This document shows, piece by piece, positions 14,047 to 31,247 of a stretch of 38,688 nt of DNA (positions within the stretch are counted from its first letter, which is position 1; every line of letters starts with the position of its first letter). The notes under the pieces are model-generated. The model searched no databases. It was not told the DNA's origin and saw nothing but the letters and a program-made list of their open reading frames with translations. The position numbers and the translations under genes were made by a program. The stretch comes from an uncultured Verrucomicrobia subdivision 3 bacterium (lineage in GTDB: Bacteria > Verrucomicrobiota > Verrucomicrobiia > Limisphaerales > UBA11358). Location: NCBI GenBank assembly GCA_903944085.1, contig CAJAQO010000308.1:1-38688 (forward strand), written 5' to 3'.

Positions 14047-14391
14047 AAACGGCGGTTTAACCAGCGTCTTTTTTTTATCATATTCCTGGCCAGCCAGATT
14101 TCCCAGCCACCGGGTTTTGCTGAAAAACGATAGTTTTTGTGATTTTCGTTTCAGTCTGGCTTATGGTAGGACAGCGACACTTGCGTTATGTTCGGGCTTG
14201 GGAGCAAAGTGGTGCAAACGGCGTTCGACGGCATTCAGAAGTTTCAGATGTCCGCCCCGCAGGCAAGGTATTGTCCCAGCCGGTCGAGGTTTTCCGCGTC
14301 AGCGCCGAGGTTTTCCAACTTGCCAACAAGGTTTTGCCCGGGGTGCTCAAGGTTTTCCGCCCGGCATTTGGGGTTTTGGGTCTCGCCCGCG

Positions 14392-14414
14392 AGGTTTTGC
14401 CGGGCGCAAAACCT
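14392..14414. repeat. Perfect palindrome at first inversion in array 1
   Basis: Two facing cores form arms AGGTTTTGC (14392-14400) and GCAAAACCT (14406-14414) around a 5-nt centre, a perfect 9-bp inverted repeat. It could fold as a hairpin in RNA or cruciform DNA, or form a symmetric protein site. Confidence 0.85.
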
Positions 14415-14496
14415 TTTTGGGCCGGCCGGCCACCTTGAATCCCTCCCGCACAACCTTCAATGCGGACCGCATAAAAGGTTTTGCGCGCCGTCCCCG

Positions 14497-14519
14497 AGGT
14501 TTTTTGCGATAAAAAACCT
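14497..14519. repeat. Perfect palindrome at third inversion in array 1
   Basis: Arms AGGTTTTTT (14497-14505) and AAAAAACCT (14511-14519) flank the 5-nt centre GCGAT. The geometry (9-bp arms, 5-nt centre) is identical to the palindrome at 14392-14414, but the arm sequence has changed on both sides together. Confidence 0.85.
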
Positions 14520-14876
14520 CGAATCTGTCGCGGAAAACTTCAAATCCGCGCCGGATAACCTTCAATGCCAGCCGGACAACCTCGATTCCCCGGCGCAAAA
14601 CCTTATCCGCCAGGCTGGTCACCTTGGGCGCGCGTTGCAAAACCTCTTCCAAATCATTCATTTGCACGAACGTGGGCGGCTGAATATGCCGGCTACACAG
14701 CCCCTTCGGCCTCGACGTGAACCGAAGGATGAGCTATCGGTCTAGTTTCGGAATCGGAGCGCTCAGCCAGCAAAACCATGATCAGATACCTTGCACCAAT
14801 CAAAGAGCTTTCCCGTTTGTCCACGCCGGCGCAGGTCAACGAATTGACCACATGGGATGTGTATGAGGACGATTTT

Positions 14877-25818: not shown

Positions 25819-26562
25819 ATGACGCGCCTTGACCTCAAGCTCATCTTGCCCGCCGAAAATCTCGCTGCGGACGAGGCGCTGCTCGACTGGTGCGAGACGG
25901 GCGCGGGCGACGAAACAATTTTATTTTGGGAGCCGCGCGACACGTTCGTCGTCGTCGGCTACGCGAACAAGGTGGCGGCGGAAGTGAACGCCGCCGCGTG
26001 CGAGAAAAACGGGATTCCGATTTTTCGCCGCTGCTCCGGCGGCGGCACCGTGGTGCAAATGCCCGGCGGCTTGAATTACAGTTTGATTTTGCGCATCACC
26101 GAAACCGGCCCGACCCGGAACATCACAACGGCCAACCAGTTCATCATGGGAAAAAACCGCGTCGCGATTGAAAGCATTTTCCCCGACTCCGCACTCCGCA
26201 CTCCGCACTCCGCAATTTCTGTGCGTGGTCACACGGATTTATGTTTGGACAATTTGAAATTCGCCGGCAACTCGCAGCGCCGCCGGAAAAATTTCCTGCT
26301 CTTCCACGGCACGCTGTTGTTGAACTGTGACCTCACGCGCATCAGCGAGTTGCTTTTGATGCCGTCGCTGCAACCCGATTACCGCGCCAGCCGGCCGCAC
26401 GAGAGCTTTGTGACGAACTTGAATCTGCCCGCAGAAAAAGTAAAAACCGCGCTGGCCAAAGTGTGGAATGCAAACGAGGAATTAGCCAATCCGCCGCTGG
26501 AAGAAATCGCCCAACTCGCCAGCGAGAAATACTCAACGAGCGAATGGAATTTCAAATTTTAG
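25819..26562 (+). CDS. lplA: Lipoate-protein ligase A family protein
   Basis: The 247-residue protein belongs to the biotin/lipoate ligase fold: FWEPRDTFVVVGYANK, RRCSGGGTVV (70-79), GGLNYSLIL and DLKF-type lysine segment NLKFAGNSQRRRKN (Lys147). It would attach lipoate or octanoate to E2 proteins, here most obviously AceF Lys41, and it is divergent from aceE. Residues about 123-134 (PDSALRTPHSAI) are encoded by a GCGGAGT-type dispersed repeat and fall in a loop that normally has no such peptide, so the gene tolerated an in-frame insertion. The ATG at 25819 is set by homology. It could be a lipoyltransferase/octanoyltransferase (LipM-like) rather than a true ligase. Confidence 0.87.
   Translation: MTRLDLKLILPAENLAADEALLDWCETGAGDETILFWEPRDTFVVVGYANKVAAEVNAAACEKNGIPIFRRCSGGGTVVQMPGGLNYSLILRITETGPTRNITTANQFIMGKNRVAIESIFPDSALRTPHSAISVRGHTDLCLDNLKFAGNSQRRRKNFLLFHGTLLLNCDLTRISELLLMPSLQPDYRASRPHESFVTNLNLPAEKVKTALAKVWNANEELANPPLEEIAQLASEKYSTSEWNFKF
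26185..26217. repeat. GCACTCC tandem repeat inside lplA
   Basis: Four near-identical 8-bp steps of CCGCACTC lie in frame in lplA and encode SALRTPHSA. The same word in opposite orientation occurs in the hairpin at 34288-34358. It behaves like a dispersed repeat that inserted into a coding loop. Confidence 0.75.
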
Positions 26563-26635: not shown

Positions 26636-27211
26636 TCAGAGCCGCGCCACCAGCGCCGCCTGGCTCTTGGCAAAAATTTCCTCGTGCAGCGAATTCCCGT
26701 GCGCGTCAATCGTCACCACCGCCGGAAAATCCTCCACCGCCAGTTCCCAGATGGCTTCCGGCGAGCCGAATTTTTCGAGGAAATAAACATTGCGGACTTT
26801 TTTGATGCACTCGGCCAGCACCTGCGCCGCGCCGCCGATGGCGTGCAAATACACGCAGCCGTATTCCTTACACGCCGCCTGCGTCTTTTCGGCCATGCCA
26901 CCCTTGCCGATGACGCCGCGCAATCCGAAATCGCGGATGACCTGCCATTGATACGGCTCCTCGCGGATGGACGTCGTCGGCCCGGCAGCGGTGCAAAGGT
27001 AGCTGCCGTCCGCCTGCTTCATCATCACCGGTCCGCAGTGATACATGATACCGTCCTTGAAACTGACGCCGTCCGGCAGCGCGCCGCCTTCGTGCAAATA
27101 TTTGTGCACCGCGTCGCGCCCGGTGAACACCGTGCCGGAAAGCAGCACCTCGTCGCCGACTTTCAGCGCGCGGATTTTTTCTTCGGTGAAGGGGAAAGTT
27201 AACTTTGTCAT
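26636..27211 (-). CDS. fumB: Class I fumarate hydratase, beta (C-terminal) subunit
   Basis: The 191-residue protein is the swivel (beta) subunit of the two-subunit, iron-sulfur class I fumarase/tartrate dehydratase family, which interconverts fumarate and malate. Conserved features are LTFPFTEEKIRALKVGDEV, LSGTVFTGRDAVHKYL, HCGPVM, AAGPTTSIRE, GVIGKGGM and YLHAIGGAA. Length is normal. The alpha subunit gene is on the same strand but 3.2 kb upstream instead of directly adjacent; accessory DNA lies between. Because the two subunits must assemble, their separation implies that fumB now has its own promoter. The beta fold is shared with L-tartrate dehydratase, so that activity remains possible. 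Confidence 0.92.
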   Translation of the reverse strand: MTKLTFPFTEEKIRALKVGDEVLLSGTVFTGRDAVHKYLHEGGALPDGVSFKDGIMYHCGPVMMKQADGSYLCTAAGPTTSIREEPYQWQVIRDFGLRGVIGKGGMAEKTQAACKEYGCVYLHAIGGAAQVLAECIKKVRNVYFLEKFGSPEAIWELAVEDFPAVVTIDAHGNSLHEEIFAKSQAALVARL

Positions 27212-27266
27212 GGCCGCAACCTAAACAATTCGCCTGCGCATTTCCACCGGGAAATGTCTGCGAACT

Positions 27267-27740
27267 GCGCCGAGATCCCTTTGGGAAACTCCGAGCCATG
27301 TCCATGCTCGGCCCAGTGGTGATTTTGCCGGGACGAGACGCTTTCCTGCCGGGACGGGCAGTCGGCCAGCGAGGGCGAGGCTGAATTGAACGACCCGGAG
27401 CGACGTTCCAGCGAGGGCGAGAACCCTTCCGAACGGGGCGAGCGACTGATTTTCTGGGGCGAGACGGAATCCAACCGGGGCGAAATCCATTTTTGCCGGG
27501 TCGAGGTCCGTTCCCGCAGAGGCAAGCGACCATCTGGACGGGGCGAGTTCGAATCGCCCTGGGGCGAGCTGCAATCTGACGAAGGCAAGCTGGGTTCCGA
27601 CAGGGTCGAGTTGAGATTTATCAGGGGCGAGCAGTCTCCCGACAAGACCGAGTTGTCTTCCAACCGGGACGAGATGCGTCCGACTTGGGGTGAGATTGGG
27701 TTTTTTCGGGGCGAGCGGCGTTCCGAACGGGGCGAGCGGC
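27267..27740 (+). repeat. Array 2: twenty-three 21-bp-phased units with core GGGGCGAG
   Basis: The word GGGGCGAG (or close variants GGGTCGAG, GAGGCAAG, GGGACGAG) recurs at exact 21-bp steps. The CGAG element is at 27271, 27292, (27313 degenerate), 27334, 27355, 27376, 27397, 27418, 27439, 27460, 27481, 27502, 27523, 27544, 27565, 27586, 27607, 27628, 27649, 27670, 27691, 27712 and 27733. All cores have one orientation. The other 13 bp of each unit are unrelated. Degeneracy is greatest at the left end. Open frames on both strands here are a by-product of the multiple-of-three period. The array lies between fumB and a broken DUF2283 gene. Confidence 0.93.
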
Positions 27741-27798
27741 CTTATTTTCAGTGATTTACTGGGTTTTGGCCGTCCAATCCCGAAAAGGGCTGTTTGGC

Positions 27799-28007
27799 TC
27801 AGGCGGCAGCCAAATCCGGCTCCAGCGGATTGCCTTTCTTGAACTTGCTCACGCCCATCACGCTGAAACCGATGACCTACACCGCCGCATCCACGCGCTC
27901 CATCACGGCGTCGTTGGCGGTGGCCTTTTCGTAGCCAGCCGCGTTGGAAAAGCGACTTCAAGAAAATCCGCCTCCGCGTCGAACCAGACTTTTGTTTTAT
28001 CGGCCAT
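27799..28007 (-). pseudogene. Broken DUF2283-family gene (second copy)
   Basis: The minus strand starts MADKTKVWFDAEADFLEV, the typical DUF2283 N-terminus, then shifts frame. The new frame continues NAAGYEKATANDAVMERVDAAV, reaches an in-frame TAG, and resumes VIGFSVMGVSKFKKGNPL ... DLAAA up to TGA at 27799. One frameshift and one nonsense codon are therefore needed to explain it. The ATG shares one base with the stop of the intact DUF2283 gene (TGATG), showing that it was once a coupled operon member. Confidence 0.82.
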
Positions 28008-28213
28008 CATGCCCCGACCGTTTCCATCTCCATCCGGCCAATCTTTTCAGGCGAAACCCGTTTGGAAAGATAAAGCATTTCAATGCCCATCACCTTGCCG
28101 CTCGCGTTGTAATCGAAAATCACGCCGGGCGAAATCTCCTCGCTCTCGAAGGCGGGGGCTTCGTCCAAGTCCAGATACAGCGCGTCGGCTTTGCGGTCAA
28201 TCGTCAGCTTCAT
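28007..28213 (-). CDS. DUF2283 domain protein
   Basis: The 68-residue protein MKLTIDRKADALYLDLDEAP ... VIFDYNASGKVMGIEMLYLSKRV is a clear DUF2283 member, a small beta-rich family commonly encoded directly after a DUF4258 protein in what looks like a toxin-antitoxin-style pair. Its ATG overlaps the stop of the degenerate DUF4258 gene upstream (ATGA), and its stop overlaps the start of a second, broken DUF2283 gene. It is the only intact member of the cassette. Function is unproven; an antitoxin-like or chaperone role is inference from genome context of the family. Confidence 0.82.
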   Translation of the reverse strand: MKLTIDRKADALYLDLDEAPAFESEEISPGVIFDYNASGKVMGIEMLYLSKRVSPEKIGRMEMETVGA

Positions 28214-28337
28214 AATTTGCGTTTCAGTTTCCGGTCCAGGTGCGCGGTGATGACGCGCCTCGGTTCGTCTTTGGATACAATCACCCGCAGCACCCGGTTG
28301 GCAAGCTCCGGCACGGACGCCAAGCGTCGCATCCACC
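28210..28337 (-). pseudogene. Truncated, frameshifted DUF4258-like gene
   Basis: The last 33 codons before TGA at 28210 read SVPELANRVLRVIVSKDEPRR followed by VITAHLDRKLKRKL, the C-terminal half of a DUF4258 protein. Just upstream another frame gives RIEPDEVDATL, the family's preceding helix, so at least one frameshift separates them. The N-terminal half is missing: the DNA runs into the fumB-like remnant instead. It is the dead partner of the intact DUF2283 gene. Confidence 0.6.
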
Positions 28338-28363
28338 TCATCCGGCTCGATGCGCGAAGGATT

Positions 28364-28433
28364 TCAATCAACCGCGCTGCCGGCTTTCAGCGCGCAGATT
28401 TTTTTCGGGGAAGGGAAAGGAAAGTTCAACCAT
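28364..28433 (-). pseudogene. Remnant of a second fumB 5' end
   Basis: From ATG at 28433 the minus strand reads MVELSFPFPE, then, after a one-base slip in an A-run, KKICALKAGSAVD and stop. This parallels the real fumB start, LTFPFTEEKIRALKVGDEV. At DNA level about 50 bp are clearly alike (shared CTTTCAGCGCGC and a T-run). The rest of the gene is gone. It lies directly downstream of the AlbA_2 gene, in the place where fumB would be expected after fumA. Confidence 0.72.
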
Positions 28434-28452
28434 AACAAAACATTGACAGCAA

Positions 28453-30312
28453 CTAGACTAAATGAGTTGTCCGATAATCTGTTTTTAACAAATAGCCTCT
28501 GGTTTCAGGTTTCTTTTCAACAAACCCACCTTTTTGCAATTTATTAAAAGCAAAGCGAACCTTTCGATATAACCTATCAAACTCCTTGATGTCATCATTG
28601 GCACGACCAGATTCAAACCAAAGCGTAAAACTGGCCTGCTTGGCACTCGCAACTCGTGCTTTTGAGAAGTGGTTAAAACGATAAACGACACCAAGCACCT
28701 GTTTAAGAAACTCATCCAAAACATCAAAGCCTACGCCAAAAATTTCACGCAGCTCGGCAAGATAGTCTTTCATCATCAAAGAGCGATCCACTACATAGAT
28801 TGGATAAATGGCCGTGCTCAACTGGTGTTTTTGAATCAAGCCGGACTGTTCCAAAGCCAACAACGCCTTGAAATGATTATTGTCGGGAGTTAACAATATC
28901 GTGTAGCCAAGCCGTTCGTTCGCCCATTCTGACTTGATCAAATAACTCAATACGAGTTTTTGCTCTTGGCTTAATCCATTTCCTTGCAATTTGGTTTCCA
29001 GATAGCCGTCAAAAGATTGAAATAACCTCTCCATGCGTTCATCAAGCAACTTTCCTGCGCATACATGCAGACAAACCTCTTCAGAAAACAGACGGTAATA
29101 TGGAAGATCAATCTCATTTTGCAGGCACAAGTTGACCAACGTAGCCATGCCAATGCCGCGCCCTTCCCATTTTCGATAGACTCGCAACACATCCGCCAGC
29201 TTTGGATTGCGCGGTTTGGCTTCAGGAAGGATTCGACGTAACGGGATCGCATCATTTGGGGCTTCAATCAAAAGGTGGCTGCGAAACGAACCAGGATTTC
29301 GGATGGCAATATGAGCGCCCGGCTTAATGGCAATAATTGCCTGTTTGTTGATGGAATAATCACGGTGCGCCAACGCATTGTTGACTGTTTCACGCAACAA
29401 TTGTTCGGGGTATTGTGGCGCATTTTGTCCGCCCTGTTGAGCACTGACACCCACTTGAATATTTCGTAAGATATAGGCAAGACTGCTCTCCATGAGCGGT
29501 AGAATATTATCGGCCAAGTCCTGTTTATCGCGTGCAATTTCCTGCGGCACGTCAACGTATCCATGCACCTGACATCGGAATCCCAGGTTGTCGACCGCAT
29601 GTTTCCCGCAAACCAAAGCACCGAGCGTTGTGACCTGACCATCTTTGAAAAAACACTTGCGTTCAAGGAAAGGCATTGCAGCAGCGATGTCGGCCTTGAT
29701 CGTTTCAACTTTCACGGGTCGGTTCAGATGCGTGATATATTCGTTGAGTTTGTCCAAATCAAAGTCGTCCGGCGTAAGGCCGGCAACTGGCTGCAATTCT
29801 CTGGCGTGAACCGCCTCCTGCTTAAACTCTTCTTGAGCGTCAACCTCGGCTTCTGAAAATTTATGATCGCCAGTTAAAATCCGTTTGTAGGCTGTCCCCT
29901 TGTAAAAGACATATTTCCGATCCGAAGCAAGTTCGTCCACGTAAAGAACCGCTATGCGGCCACCAAGAAATTCTTTTAGTTCCATCGGCGGGAAGCAGTC
30001 TGACAAATTTTGCGGAGAACCTTTGCGATCCGTAAAAAGCTCTGCAATTTCTTTCAGGTTTGGTTCGGCGTGCGCTTGCCAGCCTGTAAAAACGTAACGC
30101 CGATTTGCGCCCGCCCCTTCTTCTTTTACGCCAAAAATCACGATGCCGCCACGAGTGTTAAGAAACGCATTTATGCTTTTGTGGCGTTCTTTCCAATCTC
30201 CTCCAGTCGCAGGCACAGGCTTTATCTCCAAGCCTTCCGTTTCCAGATCCTCAAAGCGTCCTTGCTGGATCAGTTCGCTCAATTTAATCAGGATGCGTTC
30301 AACAACTTTCAT
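28453..30312 (-). CDS. AlbA_2 / HATPase_c_4 domain protein (RecG-like regulator family)
   Basis: The 619-residue protein has an N-terminal Schlafen AlbA_2 domain (about 25-160: EIKP, then LNTRGGIVIFGVKEEG at 51-66) and a GHKL-type ATPase domain with N-box ETVNNALAHRDYS (308-320), IRNPGS (337-342), PRNPKLADVLR (367-377) and GRGIG (384-388). The C-terminal 200 residues are helical and unassigned. Proteins of this layout are annotated as putative transcriptional regulators or ATP-binding DNA-binding proteins, and AlbA_2 domains recur in defence islands. Base composition is clearly more A/T-rich than all neighbours and codon use is relaxed, a sign of transfer. It sits between the fumarase subunit genes on the same strand, 56 bp after fumA. 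Confidence 0.82.
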   Translation of the reverse strand: MKVVERILIKLSELIQQGRFEDLETEGLEIKPVPATGGDWKERHKSINAFLNTRGGIVIFGVKEEGAGANRRYVFTGWQAHAEPNLKEIAELFTDRKGSPQNLSDCFPPMELKEFLGGRIAVLYVDELASDRKYVFYKGTAYKRILTGDHKFSEAEVDAQEEFKQEAVHARELQPVAGLTPDDFDLDKLNEYITHLNRPVKVETIKADIAAAMPFLERKCFFKDGQVTTLGALVCGKHAVDNLGFRCQVHGYVDVPQEIARDKQDLADNILPLMESSLAYILRNIQVGVSAQQGGQNAPQYPEQLLRETVNNALAHRDYSINKQAIIAIKPGAHIAIRNPGSFRSHLLIEAPNDAIPLRRILPEAKPRNPKLADVLRVYRKWEGRGIGMATLVNLCLQNEIDLPYYRLFSEEVCLHVCAGKLLDERMERLFQSFDGYLETKLQGNGLSQEQKLVLSYLIKSEWANERLGYTILLTPDNNHFKALLALEQSGLIQKHQLSTAIYPIYVVDRSLMMKDYLAELREIFGVGFDVLDEFLKQVLGVVYRFNHFSKARVASAKQASFTLWFESGRANDDIKEFDRLYRKVRFAFNKLQKGGFVEKKPETRGYLLKTDYRTTHLV

Positions 30313-30368
30313 TCGATGAAAACTATTTTAGCCAGCTTATACGTTTTTGCACGGCTTGTTATTAAATG

Positions 30369-31247
30369 TCAATAAAGCCACTTCCCAATCTTCCCCTCCG
30401 CATCCAGCGTCACGCCTTGCCGCCGGAACGCCCAGCACATGTAGCTCACGCTCACGAAATACGACGCCGGCACGCGGTTCGCCGCGCAAATTTTCACGCC
30501 CAGCAGCGTCGTCTTGCCGCCAAAACCCATCGGGCCGATGCCGAGTTCGTTCGCCGTTTTCAAAATGTCCTGCTCCAGCGCGTCAAGCTTCGGGTCGGCA
30601 TTGCGGTCGTCGAGCAGGCGCAGGAGCTGCGTCTTGGAAAGTTCGTAGCCCGTCGCGCGGTCGCCGCCGATGCACACGCCGAGCACGCCGGGGCCGCAGC
30701 CCTTGCCCTGCGCCTGCAACACCGCGTCGAGAATCGCTTTGCGGCAGCCGTCGAGGTCGCGGTTCGCGTGCAGCGCGTCGTCCGGCAGCGAGTATTGCGC
30801 GCCGACATTTTCGCAGCCGCCGCCCTTGAGCACGAGTTTCACGGAAATCTCCGGCGACCGGTGCTGATGAAAATGAAATGTCGGCGCGCCCGGCCCGACG
30901 TTCGTGCCGTCGTTTTTGCCGGTGAGCGAATCCACGGAATTCTGGCGGAGAAAACCTTTTTTCGTCGCCAGCGTCACGGCTTCGCGCGCGGTCTCGGCGA
31001 ACGTGATCTGATCGTAGCCCACCGGCACATCCACATAAAATAAAATGCTGCCGGTGTCCTGGCAAATCGGCTGCGATTTCGTTTTCGCGAGCGCGATGTT
31101 TTGATCCACGATTTTCAGCGCGTTGGCCGCGAGGGAATTTTTCTTTTCATTTTCCAGCGATGCGAGGATGACTTTGTGGACGTCATCGGGAATCTCGGCG
31201 GACGTGCGGCGAATGAGTTCGACCAGGGAATCTTGCAATTGGCTCAT
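30369..31247 (-). CDS. fumA: Class I fumarate hydratase, alpha (N-terminal) subunit
   Basis: The 292-residue catalytic subunit binds a [4Fe-4S] cluster, probably through Cys62 (PICQDTGS), Cys145 (GGGCENVG) and Cys184 (GKGCGPGV). Other family signatures are NVGPGAPTFHFHQH, GVCIGGDRATGYE and GPMGFGGKTTLLGVKI. Length matches stand-alone alpha subunits. Together with fumB it forms the oxygen-sensitive fumarase of the TCA cycle. The beta gene is displaced by 3.2 kb. An L-tartrate dehydratase activity cannot be excluded from sequence alone. Confidence 0.93.
   Translation of the reverse strand: MSQLQDSLVELIRRTSAEIPDDVHKVILASLENEKKNSLAANALKIVDQNIALAKTKSQPICQDTGSILFYVDVPVGYDQITFAETAREAVTLATKKGFLRQNSVDSLTGKNDGTNVGPGAPTFHFHQHRSPEISVKLVLKGGGCENVGAQYSLPDDALHANRDLDGCRKAILDAVLQAQGKGCGPGVLGVCIGGDRATGYELSKTQLLRLLDDRNADPKLDALEQDILKTANELGIGPMGFGGKTTLLGVKICAANRVPASYFVSVSYMCWAFRRQGVTLDAEGKIGKWLY

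Follow-up and report, generated by a model that had tools for sequence, protein, structure and literature searches.

The window, a stretch of 38,688 nucleotides of genomic DNA from an uncultured Verrucomicrobia subdivision 3 bacterium, carries a tandem array of 21-bp units (27,267–27,749, plus strand) between the two genes encoding the subunits of fumarase. The left neighbour is the gene for the beta subunit (PF05683; 26,636–27,211, minus strand), which looks intact and has its start codon 56 bp from the array, and the gene for the alpha subunit (PF05681) is found at 30,369–31,247. The interval from 26,636 to 31,247 also contains a DUF2283 gene, a 44-bp duplicated 5' fragment of the fumarase beta gene (28,379–28,419, minus strand; 86% identical to 27,155–27,198) and an SLFN/AlbA_2 gene (28,453–30,312, minus strand). 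The duplicated fragment is a scar of an insertion or rearrangement. Since this fragment, the DUF2283 gene and the SLFN/AlbA_2 gene all stand between the fumarase genes, the array sits where the fumarase pair is split in the source species. The first-pass annotation, made from the sequence alone, had called the surroundings a graveyard of broken genes, which is an overstatement given the intact-looking fumarase beta gene and the SLFN/AlbA and fumarase alpha genes that follow; the broken remnants near the array are just the 44-bp duplicate and small DUF2283-type remnants.

The array consists of 23 head-to-tail units with the consensus GGGnCGAGnngcntTCcnnCn, and its core recurs in steps of 21 bp from 27,267 to 27,729 (register 27,267 + 21k) in a single orientation. 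The core GGGGCGAG is matched at all eight bases in 7 of the 23 units and at six or more bases in 18 of them, and in registers other than this one at most 1 of 23 positions reaches a match of six or more. Column conservation is 0.539 (20 units) versus 0.307 ± 0.009 in 2,000 Markov shuffles with a maximum of 0.34, which corresponds to a z of about 26, and the other periods tested between 15 and 28 yield only 0.295–0.337. The register counts and the shuffle test thus bear out the lattice as it was originally described, with 23 units spaced by 21 bp in one orientation. Position 4 of the core is variable (G 13, C 5, A 3, T 2) and can be regarded as free, so that the real core is GGGnCGAG.

The 13 bases between successive cores had been described as unrelated. 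This holds for most of the spacer columns, which show a between-unit identity of 32% compared to 26% expected, but not for columns 14–16, where a weaker block (A/T)T(C/T) is preferred, nor for column 20, which favours C. With a mean unit identity of 0.49 and near-random composition in 10 of 21 columns, the array has spacers whose divergence is close to random, yet its 21-bp spacing has stayed unmoved. The unevenness between columns exceeds that of uniform decay (z 11.4). As had been noticed, no indel is needed within the 23 units; the best alignment, which runs slightly past the units, takes a single one. Degeneracy does rise towards the left edge, as a weak trend (Spearman 0.45, p = 0.03). 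Similarity between units does not fall with their distance in the array, no lag being significant, and together with the near-random spacers this leaves a recent origin, one of the two explanations that had been offered for the perfect phase, unsupported.

A second 21-bp lattice is located at 14,228–14,660 of the window, flanked by a glycosyltransferase gene and a dihydrolipoamide dehydrogenase-like gene. The left half has GAGGTTTT as its core and the right half the reverse complement AAAACCTC, the orientation flipping midway in an unbroken lattice. This is presumably the feature numbered Array 1 in the first-pass annotation. The view of single arrays taken there missed what this lattice and at least 11 more arrays of the genome have in common with the first, namely the same period combined with unrelated cores.

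The wider occurrence of such lattices was surveyed with a period scan based on column conservation (periods 13–39). Run first at period 21 on flanking DNA, it gave unexpected extra arrays with unrelated cores. Across 771 kb of the source genome, 13 intergenic period-21 arrays were found (about 14–17 per Mb), and all other periods from 13 to 39 together gave three matches (one at 18 and, within a 21-bp array, two at 14); 21, which corresponds to two turns of the DNA helix, is the only enriched period in this range. Without the window and a contig that had been selected because of its array, 10 arrays remain in about 718 kb, from which 80–100 arrays per genome can be estimated. Each of the 13 arrays has its own core, and the period alone is common to them. 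The cores include GGGnCGAG, GAGGTTTT, AAAnTGGGG, GTTCCCGgt, CACcgGTG, CGTTCtg..ggaaCG and CGACGcC..CGAcTTG as well as an alternation of ATTAAAGCGTTTTG and ATCATCGCG, which amounts to a higher-order repeat of 42 bp superimposed on the lattice (contig C10, positions 1,783–2,110 of locus L274). The array between the fumarase genes is therefore one member of a genome-wide, intergenic and non-coding class that is defined by its exact 21-bp period and not by its sequence.

The class extends unevenly to relatives. In 343 kb of a congener (G019), 13 non-coding period-21 arrays were detected, along with one array of 22 bp, and two of these had been known beforehand; the latter array (L384, 11,888–12,214) is the sole one of period 22 that was found. 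In contrast, 336 kb of another congener (G001) contained zero arrays, the single match there being a coding repeat (L306). One 21-bp array was identified in G065, which belongs to another family of the same order. A control scan of unrelated, mostly high-GC DNA gave matches at all multiples of three, with no preference for 21 over 15, 18 or 24.

Several properties are shared across the arrays. They fall between genes predicted with a simple home-made gene caller although 83% of the DNA is coding, and the few exceptions overlap low-scoring predictions only. The neighbours are ordinary chromosomal genes, and no family is common to the flanking genes; the DUF1559-type genes among them suggest an origin in the Planctomycetes-Verrucomicrobia group; 12 of 24 arrays lie between divergent genes, a weak orientation bias (p = 0.04). 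The pooled autocorrelation of 20 arrays is +0.33 at 21 bp and +0.34 at 42 bp and near zero at 10, 11, 20 and 22 bp, and a half-turn sub-periodicity is absent. The constraint common to the arrays is one of rotation, exactly two turns, and not one of sequence. When each of 35 arrays (483 units) was aligned to its own cyclic profile, 11 indels were counted against about 3,200 substitutions from the consensus, a ratio of 0.003 that is likely somewhat higher in truth, since detection favours arrays that are in register. These counts lend support to selection on spacing, the other explanation originally proposed. In most arrays the variance between columns is above that of uniform decay. Consensus cores with dyad symmetry, a feature also of dimer operators, occur in 19 of 35 arrays, with self-complementarity above that of column-shuffled controls (p < 0.05).

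In the simplest functional account of these properties, cooperative proteins would occupy sites lined up along one face of the helix. We assign a probability of roughly one half to the reading that the arrays are rows of protein-binding sites facing one side of the helix, spread by the copying of whole units and held in register by selection. A sequence-specific DNA-binding protein would find its sites lined up in each array, and adjacent bound molecules might touch to form a cooperative nucleoprotein stack that shapes the DNA or regulates the neighbouring genes. Additional units could arise from the copying of whole blocks of 21 or 42 bp, and entire arrays may occasionally be copied to new loci. 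Selection would then remove indels that rotate a site off the shared face, and bases that are not contacted would be left to drift. Some observations must be set against this reading. The core of the array between the fumarase genes has no dyad symmetry in its consensus, and the same applies to the whole CGAG class. No binding protein was identified for the arrays, and the flanking genes have no family in common. As the cores differ between arrays, no single ordinary sequence-specific protein can serve all of them; many paralogues or a protein that reads DNA shape would be needed. The function cannot be an essential one either, considering that arrays are not conserved at orthologous sites and that none is present in the 336 kb of G001.

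The chief rival, possible but on balance doubtful, is that the arrays are neutral satellite DNA. Copying that prefers steps of 21 bp (and 42 bp), for example by slippage or synthesis over two turns, would be followed by decay, and the spacing would merely record the origin. The fast turnover between species fits this account. At the orthologous fumarase loci of 29 congeners no array occupies the corresponding place, save for a different one in G019 that lies downstream of fumB, on the other side, and the same absence was noted at 29 further loci around the lpd-like gene. In another congener (G017) one CACATGTG array is present at two loci (L403 on contig C49 and L406 on contig C60). Over about 400 bp inside the lattice, 6 substitutions (about 1.5%) and one insertion of exactly 21 bp separate the two copies, whereas the left flank that they share is about 17% diverged as counted from the alignment. 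This shows copying or conversion of an array bounded by the lattice, with gain or loss of a whole unit, and the low divergence inside the arrays could reflect recent conversion rather than selection. An exact one-unit difference is also what neutral copying would leave behind. The same can be said of the pooled similarity between units, which is above chance at distances of 1, 2 and 4 units (Stouffer 3.2, a moderate value, 5.1 and 3.2), the excess at 2 and 4 units hinting at 42-bp blocks, and of a two-unit block that recurs at 83% identity inside the fumarase-locus array (27,415–27,454 and 27,709–27,749). However, neutral decay does not account for conservation that is concentrated in a minority of columns, for indels at about 0.003 of substitutions despite near-complete drift of the spacers or for dyad symmetry in half of the arrays, and their intergenic position also speaks against it. 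Furthermore, a mechanism restricted to 21-bp steps is not known to us.

It is improbable that the array is the body of a mobile element, in which case the sequence at its right end would be the end of the element and arrays would move as units. This idea draws on relatives of the same core. A search of same-genus genomes with a three-unit model and with patterns revealed arrays of the same core in G026, where there are about 13 units, and in G010, and others with the core (A)AnCCGAG in G010 and G024, all of them at unrelated loci. The right end of the window array carries a terminal motif, TTATTTTCAGTGATTTA (27,741–27,757, plus strand), which matches TTTTTCAGGGATTTA at the same end of the CGAG-class arrays of G026 and G010 (two arrays); all four arrays have (T)TTTCAGGGATT(TA) or a close variant of it at this end. 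The CAGGGATT part of the motif is found in a short array of G030, and a site in G024 carries the motif too. A shared end at unrelated loci of several species would be expected of an element, as would the copied array of G017 and the position at the split fumarase pair. On the other hand, the CGAG-class arrays have no common left end, neither a transposase nor a target-site duplication was seen, other core classes end differently, and nucleotide BLAST of the array against 48–49 congeners, phages and plasmids returned zero copies. An exact-core scan of 84,980 species genomes gave low-divergence tandem repeats, 7-mer microsatellites and short runs among the matches listed and examined, none of which was clearly a long lattice with variable spacers. 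Viral contigs with the same pattern were also considered and rejected, those with long runs looking like coding-type repeats or microsatellites. Independently of the CGAG class, the TTTTG-type arrays of two species both end in TTTTGGCGGGC (around 3,021–3,036 of L205 and 2,105–2,116 of L274), possibly another class-specific terminal motif.

Quite unlikely, too, is an RNA-level element, according to which transcribed arrays would form series of small hairpins or sequester an RNA-binding protein as sponges, with a recognition unit of 21 nt. The lattice at 14,228–14,660 folds better than shuffles (z -5.6 and -7.2), as do L333 (z -7.2), L206 (-5.6) and L044 (-7.0). However, the array between the fumarase genes does not (z -0.6 and +2.1), nor do L261, L289, L252, L041 and L195, so that folding was dismissed as a class-wide property. 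Nearly all arrays lack covariation of base pairs inside their units, p < 0.02 being reached in just 3 of 34, and neither strand of the window has an Rfam match.

A coding origin had to be excluded because 21 bp equal seven codons, and each strand does have one frame that stays open over the whole array or most of it. A translated heptapeptide-repeat protein, which the first-pass annotation had itself named as the outcome that would overturn its reading, is nevertheless highly improbable, as it is contradicted by the conservation of codon positions, by stops in the majority of frames and by the lack of Pfam matches for the open frames of the array. Whichever frame is chosen, one or more of the nearly invariant columns coincide with third codon positions. 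In the frame that would explain the free column 4 as a wobble position there are three stops, and column 7, the wobble position of CGA, is A in 22 of 23 units. In two other arrays, L289 and L206, none of the six frames is free of stops. L306 of the same genus, a genuine coding heptad repeat, served as positive control with conservation of 1.26/1.43/0.66 by codon position; unlike it, the arrays of the 21-bp kind display no consistent wobble pattern. The array is thus non-coding.

Among described systems, the iterons of plasmid and secondary-chromosome origins come close, being direct repeats bound by protein on one face, like the proposed arrangement, and spaced by about two helical turns. Within one replicon, however, iterons have a common sequence and a rep gene next to them, whereas the arrays, at an estimated 80–100 per genome, accompany unrelated chromosomal genes and differ in their cores, as seen in the 13 arrays of the source genome. 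No replication initiator gene stands beside the window array, the flanks of which are fumarase, SLFN/AlbA and DUF2283 genes. Centromere repeats of the ParR/parC type and tandem operators are also rows of sites phased with the helix, but they occupy one or a few loci per replicon with one core and have the gene for their own protein adjacent. CRISPR arrays combine near-identical repeats with unrelated spacers and cas genes; here, the core is 8 bp long and partly variable, spacer columns are conserved, the unit is 21 bp, and no Cas families were detected among the flanking genes scanned. The 7-bp unit of STRR heptamers is lacking as well, since the array has no excess at lag 7 or 14.

With satellites and minisatellites the array shares the head-to-tail arrangement of tandem units, but not a similarity over the whole repeat length or a shared monomer, as unit identity is 0.49 and cores differ between arrays. 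Non-coding satellites of prokaryotes form intergenic head-to-tail arrays, with transposed families in Leptospira and Methanocella (Subirana and Messeguer, 2019; PMC6749651). As far as the available text of that study goes, repeat lengths vary widely and a family is made up of similar repeats, whereas the arrays described here have a fixed period of 21, unrelated sequences and most of the unit free. Intergenic tandem repeats with frequent deletions have been reported in lake Planctomycetota (PMC9426551). They resemble the arrays in being intergenic and in coming from environmental bacteria, perhaps of a related phylum, but cannot be equated with them, as the accessible part of the paper gives no period, sequence or phase. 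In the portions available, neither source mentions one constant period for repeats of unrelated sequence.

Iterons, satellites, CRISPR arrays, STRR repeats and coding heptads hence each differ from the arrays in at least one of the defining features tested, and no repeat family combining a fixed helical period with array-specific sequence was found in the records and open-access literature searched. In the loosest sense the arrays are tandem repeats; the novelty claimed is that of a class united by period alone. This points to an undescribed way of aligning sites on one face of the DNA.

A broader version of the site-row reading, which we hold more tentatively and at less than even odds, is that dozens to more than 100 intergenic arrays per genome, in species of the genus and in at least one other family of the order, might serve as address rows for protein stacks on one helix face. 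The 21-bp rotation would be selected, the core would be free to differ from array to array, and the reader would be a diversified protein family or a protein that senses shape. The chromosome would then possess an organising or regulatory system set by helical phase and not by sequence. If selection holds the phase, nature has run a mutational experiment on helical phasing in each array; with hundreds of units in every genome, the drift of non-contacted bases can be separated from the constraint on rotation, and a large unknown repertoire of DNA-binding proteins must read the arrays. If instead copying makes only 21-bp steps, that mechanism would itself be new. Tandem Repeats Finder run on the window did not report the array because its units are too divergent; as ordinary repeat finders miss such arrays, the class may be overlooked elsewhere.

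Shorter repeats were encountered as well. L012 and L009 (from G023 and G066) are microsatellites made up purely of the 7-bp unit GGGTCGA, which is similar to the core of the array, and four perfect copies of the heptamer ACTCCGC are located at 26,186–26,214 of the window.
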